Shown here: positions 1 through 7,704 of the stretch, piece after piece
Position numbering within the stretch: the stretch's first letter is position 1
Layout of the letters: each line of letters starts with the position of its first letter
Source: Chloroflexota bacterium
GTDB lineage: Bacteria > Chloroflexota > Anaerolineae > Ardenticatenales > Ardenticatenaceae
Length of the DNA: 7,704 nt
Reading direction: 5' to 3'
Assembly (NCBI GenBank): GCA_003520455.1
Contig: DOUV01000800.1
Location: 1 to 7,704 of the forward strand
Notes under the pieces: generated by a model
What the model was told of the DNA's origin: nothing
Seen by the model: the letters and a program-made list of their open reading frames with translations, nothing else
Database searches by the model: none
Made by a program: the position numbers and the translations under genes

Positions 1-540
1 GTGCCCCCCCCGGGCCAACTCTTCGGCCGCGGCGAGCCCGGCCGGGCCTGCGCCGACGATCGCCACCCGTTTGCCCGTCGGATGCGTCCGGCGAGTGATC
101 ACCCGACGCTGCTTGCGGTTGGCGTCGGCGGCGAACGCCTCGAGCCGGCTGATGTTCACCGGCCCGTTGCGTGTATTGACGACGCAGGAACTCTGGCAAA
201 AATGAGGGCAGACCCGGCCGCAGATTTCAGGCAGGTTGCTGGTCTGCCGAAACACCTCCCCGGCCCCGGCGAAGTCGCCTTGCTCGATGAGCCACAGGGC
301 CAGGGGGATATTGTTGTTGGCCGGGCAAGCCCGCACGCAGGCCTGGGGATAGGGGCACTGGAGGCAGCGGCTGGCCTCGACGACCGCGGTCTCCGGGTCG
401 TACCCGAGGAACACCTCGTCGAAGTTGTGAATACGTTGCGCCGGCGCCTGTCGCGGCACCGCTTGTGGCGGCGTCGCCAGCCGGGTTTTGCGGTTGATTT
501 CCAGGATACTGGTTCGGTCAAACATAGTTGCGCGGTCCAT
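1..540 (-). CDS. GltD-like NAD(P)H-dependent Fe-S flavoprotein, N-terminal 180 residues (runs off left edge)
   Basis: This is the start of a protein of the glutamate synthase small-subunit (GltD/NfnB-like) family, which moves electrons between NAD(P)H, FAD and [4Fe-4S] clusters in the cytoplasm. The visible part has the N-terminal Fe-S domain, with Cys59, 62, 68 and 72 (CLQC...CVRAC followed by PANNNIP) and Cys107, 111, 115 and 119 (CGRVC-x3-C-x3-C). The FAD-binding Rossmann strand follows with GAGPAG at about 163-168. The rest lies outside the window. The ATG at 540 was chosen for its fit with family N-termini; a GGGA about ten bases upstream is a weak ribosome site. An in-frame GTG five codons earlier and an ATG at codon 6 are alternatives. 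The gene begins 33 bases after a small cysteine-containing gene and is the second GltD-like member of this operon. No GltB large subunit is visible, so glutamate synthesis is not implied. Confidence 0.9.
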   Translation of the reverse strand, partial: MDRATMFDRTSILEINRKTRLATPPQAVPRQAPAQRIHNFDEVFLGYDPETAVVEASRCLQCPYPQACVRACPANNNIPLALWLIEQGDFAGAGEVFRQTSNLPEICGRVCPHFCQSSCVVNTRNGPVNISRLEAFAADANRKQRRVITRRTHPTGKRVAIVGAGPAGLAAAEELARGGH

Positions 541-573
541 CCAGCAATTTCCCACAGACTCGGGATGAATACG

Positions 574-852
574 TTAACCACCTACCAGCCCGGCTCGCTC
601 CCGCTCCTGGCGCTGCCAGAGGAGTAACCAGCTATCGTAGGCGTCGGCCCAGTTCTCCTCGGTCACCACCAGAACTTTGTCCACCCCGTCCCGGTCCTTG
701 ATGTAAAAGGTAAGTTCCGGGCGACCGTCCTCCTCGGTCTCGACCATGCAGCCGCCGGGACCAAAGTCCCGGTAGAGCAGTTTCCAGCCGAAGGTGGCCT
801 CGCAGGCGGCCTGCCAGCAGGAGCACCATTGGCGGTCCATGTAGACGATCAT
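574..852 (-). CDS. Small cysteine-containing protein of unknown function (92 aa)
   Basis: I do not recognise this family. The product is 92 residues, soluble in appearance, with no signal peptide or membrane helix. Cysteines are at 10, 12, 19 and 35 (W-C-S-C-W near the start, then AAC and GGC), and Trp residues at 9, 13 and 23 sit near them. The second half is acidic (ETEEDG, TEENWADAYD) and the tail is charged. The four cysteines could bind a metal or cluster or act in thiol redox chemistry, but that is inference. The start at 852 is well supported by GGGAGAGAG at 857-865, four bases before the ATG. It lies between two GltD-like genes: 149 bases after one stop and 33 bases before the next start. 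The context suggests a partner or assembly factor for those flavoproteins. The 149-base gap upstream holds only a short GC hairpin (902-915) and no convincing gene. Confidence 0.8.
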   Translation of the reverse strand: MIVYMDRQWCSCWQAACEATFGWKLLYRDFGPGGCMVETEEDGRPELTFYIKDRDGVDKVLVVTEENWADAYDSWLLLWQRQERERAGLVGG

Positions 853-1001
853 TTTACTCTCTCCCATTCCCTGTGGCCAGGTCGGTCTCCCGGCTTTTGA
901 CGGCCGAGTTCGGCCCTGCACTCTGGCCGGGATCCCAGCCAGCGTCGCCGTCTGCGCACAAATCGAGCCGTACGATGCGAGCGGGCTACCGATTTTCTCG
1001 G

Positions 1002-2822
1002 TCAAACCTTCATGAGGAAGCGGTCGATATCTCGCGCCGCACGTTTCCCAGCGCCCATGGCTCGTACCACGGTATCGGCCCCGGTGACGATGTCGCCGCC
1101 GGCCCAGACGCCGGTCCGGCCGGTCCGTCCCGTCTCCGGGTCCACCGTGATCAGCCCCCACCGGTCGGCGGCCAGCCCGCCGGTGGTTTCGGACAGCGTC
1201 TTGTCGGCCTGGTAGCCCAGAGCGAGCACGACGGTGTCCACCGGCAGGGTGAACTCGGTGCCTGGTTTGGGCACTGGCCGGCGCCGGCCGCTGGCATCGG
1301 GCGCTCCCAGCCCCATCTCCTGGCACTCCATGGCGACCAGGCGTGCCTGTTCGTCCCCGATGAAGCGCACCGGCGTCGTGAGGAACATGAAGCGCACGCC
1401 CTCCTCACGAGCGCTGCCCACTTCCTCGCGGCGGGCCGGCATCTCTGATTCGGATCGCCGATAGACCACAGTGACTTCCCGGAAGCCCAGGCGCAGGGCC
1501 GTCTCAGCCACATCCATCGAAGTGAATTCCTTGAGCCCGTCCCGTTGGACGATGGAGCCCAGGCGGACGGCCGTCTGGGCGACGTCCATGGCCGTATTGC
1601 CGGCGCCGATGACAGCCAGGCGCTCTCCAATCGTGGGTGCGCCCTCGCCGGGCGCCTGACCACTCCGCGATAGCTTGGTCCGGGTCAGAAATTCCGTCGC
1701 GGTGTAGACCCCGTTCAGCTCCTCGCCGGGAATCCTGAGCCGGGTAGGAACGATCGTGCCGGCACCGATGAAGACCGCGCCGTACCCTTGGGCGAGGAGG
1801 TTGTCAATCGTAAGATCCGTGCCGATGGTCGTATTCACCCGGAAGCACACCCCAACCGCCTCGAGAAACTCGATCTCCGCCGCGAGCACGGGGGGCGGGA
1901 GCCGGAACGTGGGGATGCCCCACGCCAGCGCCCCCCCGATGATGGGCAGGGATTCGAAGACGGTGACCTGGTGGCCGCGGAGCGCCAGGTCGGCCGCACA
2001 CGCCAGACCCGAAGGACCGGAACCGACGACGGCGACGCGTCGGCCCGTCGCAGGTGCCTTCTGCTCCGCCGGCTGCTGTCGCCGGCCGGATGCCTGCTCC
2101 CACGTGCCCAGAAAGCGCTCCAGCGCGCCGATAGCGATGGCATCGCCCCCCTCTTGGGCCAGGACACAGGCGCCCTCGCACTGGCGGGCGAAATCACAGA
2201 CCCGGCCACAGATCGCGGGGAAGTTGGTGGTGCGGCGCAGCACTGCGATCCCTCGCTGGAAATCCTGATCGACCAGGGCGCGAATGAACCCGGGGATATC
2301 GTTGTGGACCGGGCAGCCTTGAATGCAGAGGGGTTCGGGACATTGCAAGCAACGGGTGGCCTCGACCAATGCTTGTTCGCGACTGTACCCCAGTTCCACC
2401 TCCTCGAAGTCAACGCTCCGCTCGTGTGGGTCGCGGGCCGGCATACGCACCCGGTAACCCGAGAGCGCCGGCTCCCACTGCGTGTCTGGGTACTCGCGGC
2501 CGAAGGGCAACTTGAGATCGTGATCGTCCCAGAGGCCTGGGTGCGGGCTCGGCCCATAAATGGGCTCCATCTCTTCCGGCGTGCCGACCGCCGTGGCGCC
2601 GCAGGTCTGCAACATGGTGTGGATCTCTGCTCGCCGTAGGGGCGGCACTGTCACGCCTAACAGCTGGCCACTGTGCCCATTGGACTTGGTCGCGTGGGCG
2701 CGGATACCTATAAAATCGGGGGCAATGCCGGCCTTTTCCAGCCGGCTTCGGGCGGCATCTAGAGCCTCACCATGGGTGAAAGCCGCCACCAGGACCCGGG
2801 CTGGTTGTTCTGCCTTGCTCAT
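1002..2822 (-). CDS. GltD-like Fe-S/FAD/NAD(P) oxidoreductase with extra N-terminal domain (606 aa)
   Basis: This is a cytoplasmic flavoprotein of the GltD/NfnB-like family, expected to carry electrons between NAD(P)H, FAD and [4Fe-4S] clusters. Residues 1-85 form an extra alpha/beta domain that loosely resembles ferredoxin-like stress-protein domains. The Fe-S domain has Cys158, 161, 166, 170 and Cys205, 209, 215, 219 (CGRVC-x5-C-x3-C, with Asp where Pro is usual). The FAD Rossmann motif GSGPSG is at about 267-272, followed by GGALAWGIPTFRLP at 297-310. The second nucleotide site has GAGNTAMD at 406-413, and YRRSESEMPA is at 454-463. The C-terminal FAD motif is WAGGDIVTG at 573-581. A 24-residue insertion (about 423-446) carries a second copy of MDVAxTAxRLG. 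At 606 residues it is longer than typical GltD (about 470), because of the N-terminal domain and this insert. The start at 2822 has AGGGAGGG five bases upstream, overlapping the cytochrome stop codon. No glutamate synthase large subunit is visible, so the true partner is unknown. Confidence 0.92.
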   Translation of the reverse strand: MSKAEQPARVLVAAFTHGEALDAARSRLEKAGIAPDFIGIRAHATKSNGHSGQLLGVTVPPLRRAEIHTMLQTCGATAVGTPEEMEPIYGPSPHPGLWDDHDLKLPFGREYPDTQWEPALSGYRVRMPARDPHERSVDFEEVELGYSREQALVEATRCLQCPEPLCIQGCPVHNDIPGFIRALVDQDFQRGIAVLRRTTNFPAICGRVCDFARQCEGACVLAQEGGDAIAIGALERFLGTWEQASGRRQQPAEQKAPATGRRVAVVGSGPSGLACAADLALRGHQVTVFESLPIIGGALAWGIPTFRLPPPVLAAEIEFLEAVGVCFRVNTTIGTDLTIDNLLAQGYGAVFIGAGTIVPTRLRIPGEELNGVYTATEFLTRTKLSRSGQAPGEGAPTIGERLAVIGAGNTAMDVAQTAVRLGSIVQRDGLKEFTSMDVAETALRLGFREVTVVYRRSESEMPARREEVGSAREEGVRFMFLTTPVRFIGDEQARLVAMECQEMGLGAPDASGRRRPVPKPGTEFTLPVDTVVLALGYQADKTLSETTGGLAADRWGLITVDPETGRTGRTGVWAGGDIVTGADTVVRAMGAGKRAARDIDRFLMKV

Positions 2823-3658: not shown

Positions 3659-5569
3659 TTAGCCCAAGTACAAGCGCAAGAACACCACCGTCACACCGAC
3701 GAGAAAGGTCGCGATGGGAACCAGTGCTCGTTGAGCCTGCCGGGGATCAGGGAAGTTTTCCTCCGAGAGGCGATGAGCCAGCAGAATCGACAGCACCAGA
3801 CCGACCAACAGCACAGGAATCTGGAAATAGGGCACCCACCCGGAGAGGTACGGCGTCCACGGGTAGTGCTTCGTCCCCAAGAGATTCCAGCCCCACCCGA
3901 AGGGATCAGAGAGCAACGGGATCGCGTAGGAAACGTTGATGAACAGGAACGCGATGCTAAAGGCAATCCAGGCCATCAGGCCCATTGGCACCAGGGCGTA
4001 GGCATAGGTGACGAAGACACGCCGCAGCGGGACCGAGGAGGCGCCAGCCATTCGCTTCGACAGCCAGGAAAAGAGCAGGAAAATCCCCGGGACGACCACC
4101 AGGTTCAAGGTCAGCAGTCCGGCGGCGTAGGCCAGAAAGGTCGGGAGGCTGGTCACGTTGGCCCAACTCTTCAGCTTCCCCCACGGCCCCAGCATCACCA
4201 CGGAGTAGACGGCCGCGCTGGTGAGCATGATGAAAGCCTTGTAGGCCTCATCCAGATGGCGGTAGGGCACCAGCAGGTCCTTCCCGAAGACCCGCAGGTT
4301 GAGCCCCACGTTACCCACCGGGCAGGCCTTGATGCACTCCGTACAGAGCCCGCAGTAGGCATTGCGGTTGAGTGTGCCGGGGTACTCCATCCAGGGGCAA
4401 CCGAAGGCGTCGGCCGAGCCGCGGATGCACTCTTTCCCACAGTGCCGGCGACAGACCTCGGGATCCTTCACCCGCAACTCTAGCGGCGCCACCATAGAGT
4501 ACAACCCAATGAAGCCGCCCACGGGGCAGACATAGCGGCAGAAAACCCGCCGCTGGAAGATCAGCGACAGCACAATCGCCAGCACGATGAAGAGTGACAA
4601 CACGATCCCGGTCACAACGGGGGTCGTCAGGATGATGGCGCTGAACGTAGCGACCGCCAGGAAGGAGAAGTTCTGCAGCCAGATGTTGCGTAGCCGCCGG
4701 GGCCAGGCCTTTCCGAGGGTGAAGAGCTTACGCTTGCGGCGTTGGACGAAGCTCAATCGCTGCAACCATTCGCCTGGTGCCGGGATGGGACACATGGTGC
4801 ACCATACCCGGGCTCCAAACGGAATCAGGAACATGATCAGCAGCGCCCACCAGATGATCCATACGAAGATGATGGCGAAGTTGTGGTTGCCAACCGGGGT
4901 CCCGAAGAAGGCGGTCAGGAGAACCAGCACGAAGAAGAACAGGTTCGGCAGGATCACGAAGAATTGGAAGGCCCGGTGGCGGAGCACGCGTCTCAGCAGG
5001 CCGATCCCGAGCAGATCGAAAGGCAAGCGGCGGCGTGGCAGACGGGCCCCCAAGGCCGTCAACCGGGGGAGACCCAGGGGGCGGGCGATAATGCCCAGGC
5101 TGCCAGGTGAACGATCCGGATTTCCCGGATTCTCCCGTGTTCTTGAGATGTAGCCCAGGGTGCCGAGCGCGACCAACAGGGTCAACACCATTGCTCCCGC
5201 CGCGGGAGTGTTGGGCTCAACAACCAGCTCCCCAATCATGAACGGGTGCATGTTGCCGCAGGTGTAGGAACAGCGGAAGCGGAACTTGCCGGCCTTGTCG
5301 GCGCTGATGGTCACGGTGGTAGTCCGCCCGGGGAGAACGGGTTCGTTGATCCCATACCCGTCCAGGTAAAACCCGTGTACCACGTCATCCGAAGTAATGT
5401 TGAAGACGACCTGGTCCCCGCGGTTGACATGAATGACCTCGGGTTGCCAATCAAAGCGCTGCGCCGCCAGATTGATCTCCCGCCTGGTGGGCAACCCCGC
5501 GTGAGGGTTCGCCGCGACCAGAGCAAACAGCGCGCTCAAGACGAGAAAGCGTGGTAACCAACGTTTCAT
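3659..5569 (-). CDS. CuA-like cupredoxin fused to NapH/NosR-type membrane polyferredoxin (636 aa)
   Basis: This membrane protein probably transfers electrons between a periplasmic copper site and cytoplasmic-side Fe-S clusters. A Sec-type signal peptide (about 1-21) leads to a cupredoxin domain (about 30-118) with a full CuA ligand set: His65, Cys100, Cys104, His108 and Met111 (C-x3-C-x3-H-x2-M, as in cytochrome oxidase subunit II and NosZ). A membrane helix follows (about 124-140), then a polyferredoxin core with helices near 202-223, 231-251 and 300-338. Cys257-x2-Cys260-Pro and Cys344-x3-Cys348-Pro resemble the paired motifs of NapH, NosR and CcoG. A complete [4Fe-4S] motif is at Cys406, 409, 412 and 416-Pro. 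A second set, Cys373, 377, 381 and 391-Pro, has unusual spacing. Further helices lie near 446-462, 476-501, 518-546, 583-598 and 616-632. The start overlaps the preceding stop as ATGA. It lacks the NosR FMN domain, and a copper-reductase role like CcoG is an alternative. Confidence 0.9.
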   Translation of the reverse strand: MKRWLPRFLVLSALFALVAANPHAGLPTRREINLAAQRFDWQPEVIHVNRGDQVVFNITSDDVVHGFYLDGYGINEPVLPGRTTTVTISADKAGKFRFRCSYTCGNMHPFMIGELVVEPNTPAAGAMVLTLLVALGTLGYISRTRENPGNPDRSPGSLGIIARPLGLPRLTALGARLPRRRLPFDLLGIGLLRRVLRHRAFQFFVILPNLFFFVLVLLTAFFGTPVGNHNFAIIFVWIIWWALLIMFLIPFGARVWCTMCPIPAPGEWLQRLSFVQRRKRKLFTLGKAWPRRLRNIWLQNFSFLAVATFSAIILTTPVVTGIVLSLFIVLAIVLSLIFQRRVFCRYVCPVGGFIGLYSMVAPLELRVKDPEVCRRHCGKECIRGSADAFGCPWMEYPGTLNRNAYCGLCTECIKACPVGNVGLNLRVFGKDLLVPYRHLDEAYKAFIMLTSAAVYSVVMLGPWGKLKSWANVTSLPTFLAYAAGLLTLNLVVVPGIFLLFSWLSKRMAGASSVPLRRVFVTYAYALVPMGLMAWIAFSIAFLFINVSYAIPLLSDPFGWGWNLLGTKHYPWTPYLSGWVPYFQIPVLLVGLVLSILLAHRLSEENFPDPRQAQRALVPIATFLVGVTVVFLRLYLG

Positions 5570-5946
5570 CCCTTCACCCCCTTGCTGCCCACTCGCTCGC
5601 CACCAACACCGCCACCACCAACTCGGATGGCCCGGATCAAATCCTCAGGACCAGTGGCCGTCATCCGCCTCGCATCGTAGAGATGCATCTCATTCCCTGT
5701 GGCCTCCAGACAAATAAACCGGAGCACGTCCTCAGCCGACAGTGGGAAAGGGGTTGCCAGTATCGTGCCCGGCTCAGACACCTGGATTACGACGTCGGGG
5801 TGGAGATCAAAGACATGGGCCCACCCCCCAGGTTCGTCCGGCTCGCATGCGACGACGTCGATATCGGCGGTCGTCGCAAGCAACCCCTCGATCGCCCGGC
5901 CGACGAGTGGGAACCGAGAAAGGATGGCCACGCGACGGACCCTCAT
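5566..5946 (-). CDS. Stand-alone degenerate receiver (pseudo-receiver) protein (126 aa)
   Basis: The first 60 residues follow the receiver-domain pattern of NarL-type regulators. They align without gaps with the response regulator at 6268-6927 (RVAILSRFPLVGRAIEGLL against RVLLVDDHVLFRKGLMALL; DIDVV against DFNVV; HPDVVI against MPDLIL). The acidic pair is replaced by Ser10-Arg11, and the phospho-acceptor Asp56 is replaced by Val56, so classical phosphorylation is not expected. The end of the fold (GPEDLIRAIR, about 99-108) resembles receiver helix 5. There is no DNA-binding domain; the chain ends in a Gly-rich tail (about 110-126). The start at 5946 has a strong GGAGG five bases upstream. It is the first gene of the redox operon, and its TGA overlaps the next ATG by four bases, which suggests translational coupling. 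It may bind a partner kinase, regulator or the redox complex. Without the receiver comparison it would be called hypothetical. Confidence 0.82.
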   Translation of the reverse strand: MRVRRVAILSRFPLVGRAIEGLLATTADIDVVACEPDEPGGWAHVFDLHPDVVIQVSEPGTILATPFPLSAEDVLRFICLEATGNEMHLYDARRMTATGPEDLIRAIRVGGGGVGGERVGSKGVKG

Positions 5947-6267: not shown

Positions 6268-6927
6268 TTAGTGGGAGGCCGTTGTCAGGCCCTGTTGGAT
6301 GGCATAGGCGGCGGCCTGGACGCGATTCTCAAGATGCAGCTTGGCCAGGATGTTTTTGAGGTGGTTCTTCACGGTGTTCTCGGCGATGACAAGCTTGTCG
6401 GCAATCTCTTTGTTGGTCGAGCCGTGAGCAACGAATTGGAGCACCTCACGCTCCCGGTCGGTGAGCCGCTGAATCCCAGCTTTCGCGTGCGCATTTTCGC
6501 CCAGGCGGGAGAACTCACGGATGAGCTTGCCAGCCATGAAGCGCGAAATGGGCGCCTCGCCGCACGACACGCCCCGGAGCATCTCAAAGAGCTGGCCGGG
6601 TTCCAGCTTTTTCAGCAGATACCCGTGAGCGCCGCTTTTGATCGCCTCAAAGAGGCTCCGATCGTCCTCGGCAACGGTGAGCACCACGATCTTCACATAC
6701 GGAAGCTCGGTCACGATGCGCCGCGTGGCTTCCAGACCGTCACAGACCGGCATGGCGACGTCCATCAGGATCAGGTCCGGCATCAGCGTCCGGGCCTGTG
6801 CCAGCGCCTCCAGCCCGTTCTCAGCCTCGCCCACTACATTGAAATCGCTCTGGGAGCTCAAGAGGGCCATCAGCCCTTTTCGAAAGAGAACGTGGTCATC
6901 AACCAATAGGACGCGCAGGGCGTCCAT
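6268..6927 (-). CDS. NarL/LuxR-family response regulator (219 aa)
   Basis: This cytoplasmic transcription regulator is the expected phosphorylation target of the kinase encoded just upstream. The receiver domain (about 1-120) has the full active site: Asp10-Asp11, phospho-acceptor Asp56 (ILMDVAMP), Thr84 and Lys106. The C-terminal LuxR-type helix-turn-helix is at about 153-210 (LTDREREVLQFVAHG, then NKEIADKLVIAENTVKNHL). Its length is typical of the family. The ATG at 6927 is preferred over an in-frame GTG at 6936, because AAGGGAG is eight bases before the ATG but directly abuts the GTG. The gene overlaps the kinase 3' end by 29 bases, so the pair is co-transcribed and probably translationally coupled. 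Its target is unknown; the redox operon starting about 320 bases downstream is the best candidate from position. A NarL, NreC or DegU name would be over-precise. Confidence 0.95.
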   Translation of the reverse strand: MDALRVLLVDDHVLFRKGLMALLSSQSDFNVVGEAENGLEALAQARTLMPDLILMDVAMPVCDGLEATRRIVTELPYVKIVVLTVAEDDRSLFEAIKSGAHGYLLKKLEPGQLFEMLRGVSCGEAPISRFMAGKLIREFSRLGENAHAKAGIQRLTDREREVLQFVAHGSTNKEIADKLVIAENTVKNHLKNILAKLHLENRVQAAAYAIQQGLTTASH

Positions 6928-7704
6928 CGGCGTCACTCCCTTCTTGTTCCAATGGAATCTGAACCTTCACCGTCGTCCCCGCCACAGCCCGAGAGTGCAG
7001 GCGCAAGACCCCGCCTAGACTCTCGGCCCTTTCCTGCATGATGGCCAACCCAAAGGTCCGCCGGGCCGATCGCTCGACGGCGGCCAGATCAAAGCCAGTA
7101 CCATTATCCGCGATCGTGATCCGGATCGCGTCGTTTACGCGCTGAAACCGGACCCGGACGCGCTGGGCGTCAGCGTGCTTGCGTACGTTCGAAAGCGCTT
7201 CCTGAACGATCCGCAGCAGTTGAATCTCCTGAGTGGCGGTGAAGGCTAGATCCGTGGTTCCGTCGGCCTCAAACTCAGTCGTAATACCGTATTGCAGTTC
7301 AAACTCCTCCAGGTACTGTCTCACCGTGGCGATCAGTCCTTCTTTGTGGGAAACGGGCGTGCGGAGGCCGCTAATCGCCTCCCGCACATCGGCGTAGGTC
7401 TGATCCACGACTTGGGTCAACGCCTCCAGAGCCTGTGCCGCTTGAGGCGTGTCGCCGGCCAGCATTGCCTGCCGGGCCGCACGCGCGGTGAGGTTGAGAA
7501 CGCTCAAGGCCTGGGCAAAGCCGTCGTGCATCTCGCGGGCCAGGCGATCTCGCTCCTCCAAAACCGCCAGGTCCTGCACGCGCCGCCGCCCGGCGGCCAA
7601 GTCGCGGCGCATGCCCTCGAAGGCGGCCGCCAACTGCCCGATTTCGTCCTGCCCCTGGACCACCACTGGGTGCTCCAGGTCACCGCTGGCGATCTGCTCG
7701 GTGG
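6899..7704 (-). CDS. NarX-type sensor histidine kinase, C-terminal 267 residues (runs off right edge)
   Basis: The visible part is the cytoplasmic signalling half of a sensor kinase that should phosphorylate the adjacent response regulator. Residues are counted from the first complete codon. It opens with the end of a HAMP linker (about 1-35, with DEIGQLAAAF), which implies membrane helices and a sensor domain outside the window. The HisKA_3 dimerisation domain follows, with the H-box ERDRLAREMHDG and the probable phospho-acceptor His59. The HATPase domain has the N-box QEALSNVRKHA (Asn172), DNGTGFD at 199-205 and FGLAIMQERAESLGG at 217-231. These are hallmarks of the NarX/LiaS/DegS-like family that pairs with NarL-type regulators. 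The reading frame stays open to the edge; a GTG at 7666 inside the HAMP region is not the real start. The stop lies 29 bases inside the response-regulator gene. The signal sensed cannot be told from this part. Confidence 0.94.
   Translation of the reverse strand, partial: TEQIASGDLEHPVVVQGQDEIGQLAAAFEGMRRDLAAGRRRVQDLAVLEERDRLAREMHDGFAQALSVLNLTARAARQAMLAGDTPQAAQALEALTQVVDQTYADVREAISGLRTPVSHKEGLIATVRQYLEEFELQYGITTEFEADGTTDLAFTATQEIQLLRIVQEALSNVRKHADAQRVRVRFQRVNDAIRITIADNGTGFDLAAVERSARRTFGLAIMQERAESLGGVLRLHSRAVAGTTVKVQIPLEQEGSDADGRPARPIG
6936..6942 (-). promoter_or_regulatory. Ribosome binding site that decides the response-regulator start
   Basis: AAGGGAG on the minus strand sits eight bases before the ATG at 6927 and directly abuts the alternative GTG at 6936, which favours the ATG. 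The site lies within the 3' end of the kinase coding sequence. Confidence 0.6.

Follow-up and report, generated by a model that had tools for sequence, protein, structure and literature searches.

Background

The closest described relatives of the protein considered here are the membrane polyferredoxins NosR, NapH and RdhC/PceC and, for its copper domain, the CuA domains of cytochrome c oxidase subunit II and NosZ. In the consulted sections of PMC5928378, NosR is described as needed to activate NosZ, and the passage of electrons across the membrane by RdhC is called unresolved. We analysed a stretch of 7,704 nucleotides (the window; contig DOUV01000800.1 of assembly GCA_003520455.1, from a Chloroflexota bacterium of the family Ardenticatenaceae) that carries a gene for a CuA-type cupredoxin fused to a membrane polyferredoxin. 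We put at about two in three the probability that this fusion protein serves as the membrane subunit of a NapH/NosR/RdhC-like conduit for electrons across the membrane, with a CuA head replacing the periplasmic flavin mononucleotide (FMN) head.

The fusion protein resembles RdhC/PceC in its Fer4_5 membrane core, its paired cysteine-proline motifs and its exoplasmic redox head, and four of its relatives occupy the same slot after rdhA-rdhB. RdhC, however, has an FMN_bind head and, according to the consulted sections of PMC5928378, no [4Fe-4S] motifs, whereas the fusion has a CuA head, iron-sulphur (Fe-S) motifs and five more helices. With NosR it shares an exoplasmic redox head, cysteine-proline motifs and [4Fe-4S] motifs, and some relatives lie beside nosZ; it differs in having no FMN_bind domain, in its first motif (CxxCP), in being mostly not linked to NosZ, and in its Fe-S region, which lies between helices and not at the C-terminal end as in NosR (a layout described in part in the consulted sections of PMC5928378). 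Homology to NapH is detectable over residues 244-418 (TIGR02163, E 2.1e-8, 34 bits against a curated cut-off of 213.05), but the fusion adds a copper head and five C-terminal helices. The copper domain has the predicted fold and the five side-chain ligands of the subunit II and NosZ CuA domains, but it comes here with a polyferredoxin, either in one chain or as a product of a neighbouring gene. In the FtrABCD system, too, a cupredoxin (FtrB, which is among the structural matches) is encoded with a membrane protein, the polyferredoxin FtrD. The putative copper site of FtrB is nevertheless D118/H121 and not a CuA set, as far as the consulted part of PMC11966278 goes.

An earlier note, made from the sequence alone, did not know the architecture as a characterised protein. 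This still holds after our literature search, which covered few subscription papers and found no account of the fusion or of the module described below; nor is the protein described in the consulted parts of PMC8756737, on Chloroflexi NirS fusions with cupredoxins, or of PMC3475470.

Results and discussion

A copper domain joined to a membrane polyferredoxin

The domain search and structure prediction that the earlier note had proposed as checks both agree with its assignment. Pfam matched the fusion protein to Cupredoxin_1 (E 1.3e-9), COX2 (3.8e-9) and, in two stretches, Fer4_5 (9e-7), all above the gathering cut-offs, and the AlphaFold 2 (AF2) model (predicted local distance difference test, pLDDT, 86.7; predicted template modelling score, pTM, 0.88) gives the cupredoxin region a CuA fold. 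On re-reading the sequence, the numbering of His65, Cys100, Cys104, His108 and Met111 is exact, and the motifs C257xxC260P, C344xxxC348P and C406xxC409xxC412xxxC416P are all present at those numbers. The best sequence match in the PDB is to Thermus-type CuA domains (E 9.3e-19, residues 27-118), in which the five residues align without gaps with those of subunit II that we take to be its copper ligands. In an alignment of 65 sequences (A2; 60 of the 120 listed matches, the window's own protein among them, plus five loci), H65, C100, C104 and H108 are invariant and M111 is present in at least 90%. NCBIfam gave sub-threshold matches to the CuA domains of NosZ and CoxB (TIGR02866, the CoxB equivalog, 48.9 bits against a cut-off of 147.7). 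The protein thus combines a predicted cupredoxin fold with the His, two Cys, His, Met ligand set, and the predicted fold, the conserved ligands and the PDB alignment together support CuA. With this evidence against it, we regard it as very improbable that the cupredoxin lacks a working CuA centre and instead has a structural role or binds mononuclear copper, although one locus (L072; loci, L, and genomes, G, carry our own numbers) retains the protein with neither its N-terminal domain nor its downstream partner having the cysteine motif. At this thaumarchaeal locus (L072:9926-12206) the motif appears from the sequence to have been lost jointly from both cupredoxin-like regions.

In the membrane part, eleven motif cysteines are invariant in A2. 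Two features go beyond the account in the earlier note: Cys373, Cys381 and Cys391 are invariant too and probably form a second Fe-S set, with H376 nearly invariant in the same region, and five further membrane helices are predicted after the Fe-S region. The topology predicted from the AF2 model and the sequence puts copper outside and Fe-S inside. The protein may link copper directly to cytoplasmic Fe-S, as the note had suggested. The first cysteine-proline motif is CxxCP and the second CxxxCP, as against two CX3CP motifs in FMN-type polyferredoxins. The fusion protein had no match to FMN_bind (PF04205) at E <= 1, whereas five RdhC controls matched it at 6.7e-14 to 8.8e-17. No CcoG name occurs among the ten NCBIfam matches at E <= 0.1, in a library that should include a CcoG model. 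No solved relative of the membrane part was found; structural matches were confined to about residues 25-120, except for a poor one to 6vow.

A family usually encoded as a three-gene module

The fusion architecture is real and widespread. Of 7995 candidates scored in a protein search, 1779 were homologues at E <= 1e-3, so the architecture is not due to chance; the nearest are 85, 79 and 78% identical and 645-658 amino acids long. In GTDB contigs, scanning confirmed 243 stretches. From these we kept 80 loci, ranked with a query that held the upstream cupredoxin (CuA-1) and not the downstream one (CuA-2). By record titles these are mainly Chloroflexota, with archaea (Geothermarchaeota, Nitrososphaeria, Thaumarchaeota, Archaeoglobi, Methanoperedens, Thermoplasmatota) and other bacteria (Spirochaetes, Omnitrophota, Methylomirabilota, Acidobacteria, Pirellulales, Bacillota) also represented; the genomes are chiefly metagenome-assembled, of unstated completeness. 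Among 298 sampled Anaerolineae genomes, 54 carry the family at E <= 1e-60, in 68 places.

In most of the 80 loci, separate genes encode a secreted CuA-1, the polyferredoxin and a membrane-anchored CuA-2, the last frequently extended at its C-terminus by a cytochrome c. This module is usually split, and the fusion is one of its forms. Upstream, 78 loci have a cupredoxin within 1.4 kb, a figure biased by the presence of CuA-1 in the ranking query. Downstream, 73 loci have a match within 2.5 kb, which in L009 is the cytochrome part alone. The loci with no such match are L002 and L031, which are rdhA loci, L072, whose partner is degenerate, L013 and L079, which end with the polyferredoxin, and L023 and L066. 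The motif C-x3-C-x3-H-x2-M is present in all 78 upstream matches and in 68 of 72 downstream ones, failing in L006 and L070 (altered spacing), L069 (contig end) and L009; the upstream ligand histidine was found by script in 73 loci and by eye in L059, L062, L064, L067 and L071. Most loci therefore have two complete CuA ligand sets. On a 90-row tree the fused state requires at least eight changes, the fused label taking in L072 with its degenerate N-terminal domain. The polyferredoxin frame was missed by our crude picker of open reading frames (ORFs) in seven loci and regained by tblastn.

The window has a membrane-anchored diheme cytochrome c in place of CuA-2. From CuA-2 in L059, through CuA-2-cytochrome c in L004 and L027, to this diheme cytochrome c, the series suggests domain replacement. 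L009 is a second case of a missing CuA-2: three frames of its downstream partner (L009:11875-12300) were read, and they showed the cytochrome c part and no cupredoxin. In Geothermarchaeota a third COX2-like cupredoxin lies upstream of CuA-1 (L059:9224-9904, L062:1492-2091). Near the module, tblastn matched a PCYCGC-motif lipoprotein (PF13798) in 49 of the 80 loci, and a DUF1573-like protein occurs in 34 (examples at L016:9397-9867 and L034:10440-11012). Among 25 of the 79 Pfam matches listed for 69 leftover operon neighbours, no family occurred in more than two.

CuA-type polyferredoxins in the RdhC position

The earlier note had contrasted the FMN domain of NosR with the copper domain found here, and operon position supports such a copper-for-flavin substitution. 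In L002 and L031 the fused protein comes after an RdhA that scores above its curated cut-off. These two are among four of the 68 Anaerolineae places at which RdhA and the family protein are 962-1068 bases apart; the position after rdhA-rdhB is held by the relatives L149, L150, L002 and L031. We read the surroundings of RdhA at 13 places. At nine, a small hydrophobic ORF of 70-99 amino acids, RdhB-like by reading, lies between RdhA and the next gene, which encodes an FMN_bind plus Fer4_5 polyferredoxin by Pfam in five genomes (G016, G142, G160, G245 and G285) and a fused CuA polyferredoxin in four (G002, G021, G161 and G196), whose genomes have no FMN_bind match. At the other four (G150, G181, G098 and G169) neither an RdhB-like ORF nor an FMN- or CuA-type third gene was seen. 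The two states do not overlap in the nine hand-picked rdhA-rdhB pairs (Fisher p 0.008), and these data show that the CuA polyferredoxin uses the slot of RdhC in four genomes. FMN_bind was tested in 12 genomes plus 25 chosen by hand, 16 of the 37 bearing RdhA.

Terminal enzymes beside the module

The order CuA-1, polyferredoxin, CuA-2, NosZ, NosD is found in L042, L064 and L067, and in L008 with a small ORF after the polyferredoxin, so that nosZ is adjacent in 4 of the 80 loci; another NosZ-linked copy occurs in G030, the genome of L049. These arrangements, together with the NarX/NarL-type regulator pair in the window, would fit a protein serving nitrous oxide (N2O) reduction everywhere, as an analogue of NosR for NosZ. 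We nevertheless hold this to be the least probable of the alternatives and highly unlikely, since 35 of 48 family-bearing genomes (covering 50 of the 80 loci) have no NosZ over the cut-off, although one of them, G032, has it in two pieces, and since 39 of the 54 Anaerolineae carriers have none at E <= 1e-60, with no significant association across the 298 genomes. Co-occurrence thus gives no support to a NosZ-only role. In the Scotarchaeum genome of L059 (G035), a NosZ over the cut-off (L092, 736 bits) shares a contig with the module, about 420 kb away. As regards FMN_bind, the NosZ-linked carriers G008, G030 and G040 had no match and G028 and G039 one each; for the nos case this absence carries little weight because seven NosZ genomes free of the family (G058, G067, G077, G079, G091, G111 and G165) had no match either.

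In L029 the module is preceded by genes for type II dimethyl sulphoxide (DMSO)-reductase-like alpha, beta and gamma subunits (310, 258 and 123 bits, all below the curated cut-offs) and by a chaperone-like gene, so labelled by reading; L051 has the same gene clusters and L033 two of them.

CcoG reduces copper, and the fusion protein might likewise serve cuproenzyme maturation, reducing Cu(II) or activating or assembling copper centres with no respiratory current. Consistent with this, copper-transport ATPase-like proteins (labelled by reading) lie within 10 kb in 13 of the 80 loci and belong to the module's own gene run in L010, L027, L038, L045 and L046, an SCO-like protein (also by reading) occurs in L068, and NosZ, which depends on NosR for activation, adjoins in a few loci. 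We consider maturation unlikely, as the family also occurs in rdh and type II DMSO-reductase-like operons, whose enzymes are not known to require copper, and as the two complete CuA ligand sets are kept in most loci.

Neighbouring genes in the window

Features are collected in Table 1. The window contains neither rdhA nor nosZ within its 7.7 kb. The first GltD-like gene starts 11 bases past the diheme cytochrome c gene. A GltD-like protein 58% identical to it directly follows the polyferredoxin in L005, and homologues of its N-terminal domain follow the polyferredoxin in L006 (L006:7548-7922), where the GltD part is missing, and L008 (L008:11841-12194). This domain was found in 3 of the 80 family-bearing genomes searched (of 89 first listed), always directly after the polyferredoxin, and a protein search with it gave one homologue (P0121, 71% identical). 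In L074 the genes for CuA-1 and the polyferredoxin are separated by one for an FrhB/FpoF-like F420 protein, and the gene run in L068 includes an FAD/Fe-S oxidase-like protein. These flavoprotein links, rare but independent, suggest a cytosolic flavoprotein as electron partner. Within about 10 kb of the module, response regulators of several types occur in 32 of the 80 loci and histidine kinases in 30, as raw counts.

Table 1. Features of the window (all coordinates are those of the whole stretch)
Feature	Position	Strand	Basis or remark
CuA cupredoxin-polyferredoxin fusion gene	3659..5569	minus	ATG start, 636 aa; ORF, Pfam, PDB, alignment
N-terminal putative signal helix, residues 1-20	5510..5569	minus	sequence; AF2 helix 4-19
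CuA-type cupredoxin domain, residues 29-118	5216..5485	minus	
CuA ligand loop C100-x3-C104-x3-H108-x2-M111	5237..5272	minus	His65 upstream of loop
Polyferredoxin membrane part, residues 186-636	3662..5014	minus	CxxCP and CxxxCP motifs, Fe-S region, five-helix C-terminal extension
Fe-S region, residues 373-416	4322..4453	minus	C373, C381, C391, C406, C409, C412, C416
Membrane-anchored diheme cytochrome c, 235 aa	2834..3541	minus	Pfam Cytochrome_CBB3 4.6e-26, two stretches; hand-chosen ATG
GltD-like FAD/[4Fe-4S] NAD(P)H oxidoreductase with extra N-terminal domain, 606 aa	1002..2822	minus	hand-chosen ATG
N-terminal domain of the 606-aa GltD-like protein, 135 aa	2418..2822	minus	no Pfam match
92-aa cysteine-containing ORF between the two GltD-like genes	574..852	minus	inside ORF 574..1326; no Pfam match
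Second GltD-like oxidoreductase, truncated by window edge	1..555	minus	Fer4_20 5.6e-32
126-aa ORF	5566..5946	minus	stop overlaps fusion-gene ATG (ATGA); no Pfam/NCBIfam match
NarL/LuxR-type response regulator	6268..6936	minus	
NarX/NarQ-like sensor histidine kinase, truncated by window edge	6899..7702	minus	

Proposed electron path

The fusion probably carries electrons across the membrane to enzymes outside. Quinol or, where linked, cytosolic flavoproteins would supply electrons on the side of the cytoplasm or the membrane; these would traverse the Fe-S clusters and then reduce CuA outside. From CuA they would move to another periplasmic carrier, which is CuA-2 or CuA-2-cytochrome c elsewhere and would be the membrane-anchored diheme cytochrome c in the window, and from this carrier to an exchangeable terminal enzyme such as NosZ, RdhA or a type II DMSO-family enzyme. 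Function as a conduit is likely; that electrons run outward in the window has an even chance. The NAD(P)H flavoprotein is the likeliest candidate for the electron donor there, though the assignment is tentative and falls somewhat short of even odds.

Several results weigh against the conduit reading. The polyferredoxin model has no fold match in the PDB at E <= 0.001, and we know of no redox cofactor inside the membrane part. No recognised terminal enzyme lies beside most Anaerolineae copies; by eye, no oxidase, nitrite reductase or nitrate reductase was recognised near them, among gene clusters present in at least four loci, several with no identity. NosZ co-occurs with the family in 15 of the 298 genomes against 11.2 expected from 54 carriers and 62 genomes with NosZ (p 0.19). 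For RdhA the genome-wide figure is 14 genomes (p 0.12), so that operon adjacency alone is informative; the p value for the nine hand-picked places becomes 0.048 with G150 and 0.24 when every one of the 16 genomes with RdhA and an FMN_bind test is counted. The GltD-type domain is found in just three genomes in 80. Lastly, known CuA sites have potentials of about +250 mV. Such a site could not reduce the RdhA cobalamin, at -350 to -370 mV in the consulted sections of PMC5928378, so a simple outward wire fails for the rdh operons, which need an unusual copper potential, a branch bypassing CuA, or bifurcation.

Bifurcation would resolve this mismatch: quinol electrons would be split, one set going downhill to CuA and cytochrome c and the other uphill to the cytoplasmic Fe-S, which would feed the GltD-like flavoprotein (NADP+ reduction) or a low-potential enzyme elsewhere. 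High-potential carriers (CuA, CuA-2, cytochrome c) are indeed encoded together with flavin/Fe-S partners in the window, L005 and L074. Such an inward or bifurcating conduit seems to us improbable, given that the family has no known bifurcating site, that a plain outward wire is enough for the nos operons and that the GltD-type link is rare. Slightly less probable still is the general form, in which CuA-polyferredoxins are membrane-bound bifurcating modules that split quinol or flavin electrons between a high-potential branch (CuA to CuA-2 or cytochrome c to acceptor) and a low-potential [4Fe-4S] branch. If it were true, the low-potential branch would reduce NADP+ or F420 via the linked flavoproteins or prime RdhA, and the window would be a cytochrome c-linked NADPH generator.

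Conclusions

How electrons pass across the membrane through the polyferredoxins NosR, NapH and RdhC is an unsettled question. A natural swap of flavin for CuA in the same operon slot provides a reporter at the outer end that spectroscopy can see, and opens that question to testing. The family also extends the reach of CuA past the oxidases and NosZ, to a widespread Chloroflexota and archaeal module that is linked to N2O reduction and to reductive dehalogenation.
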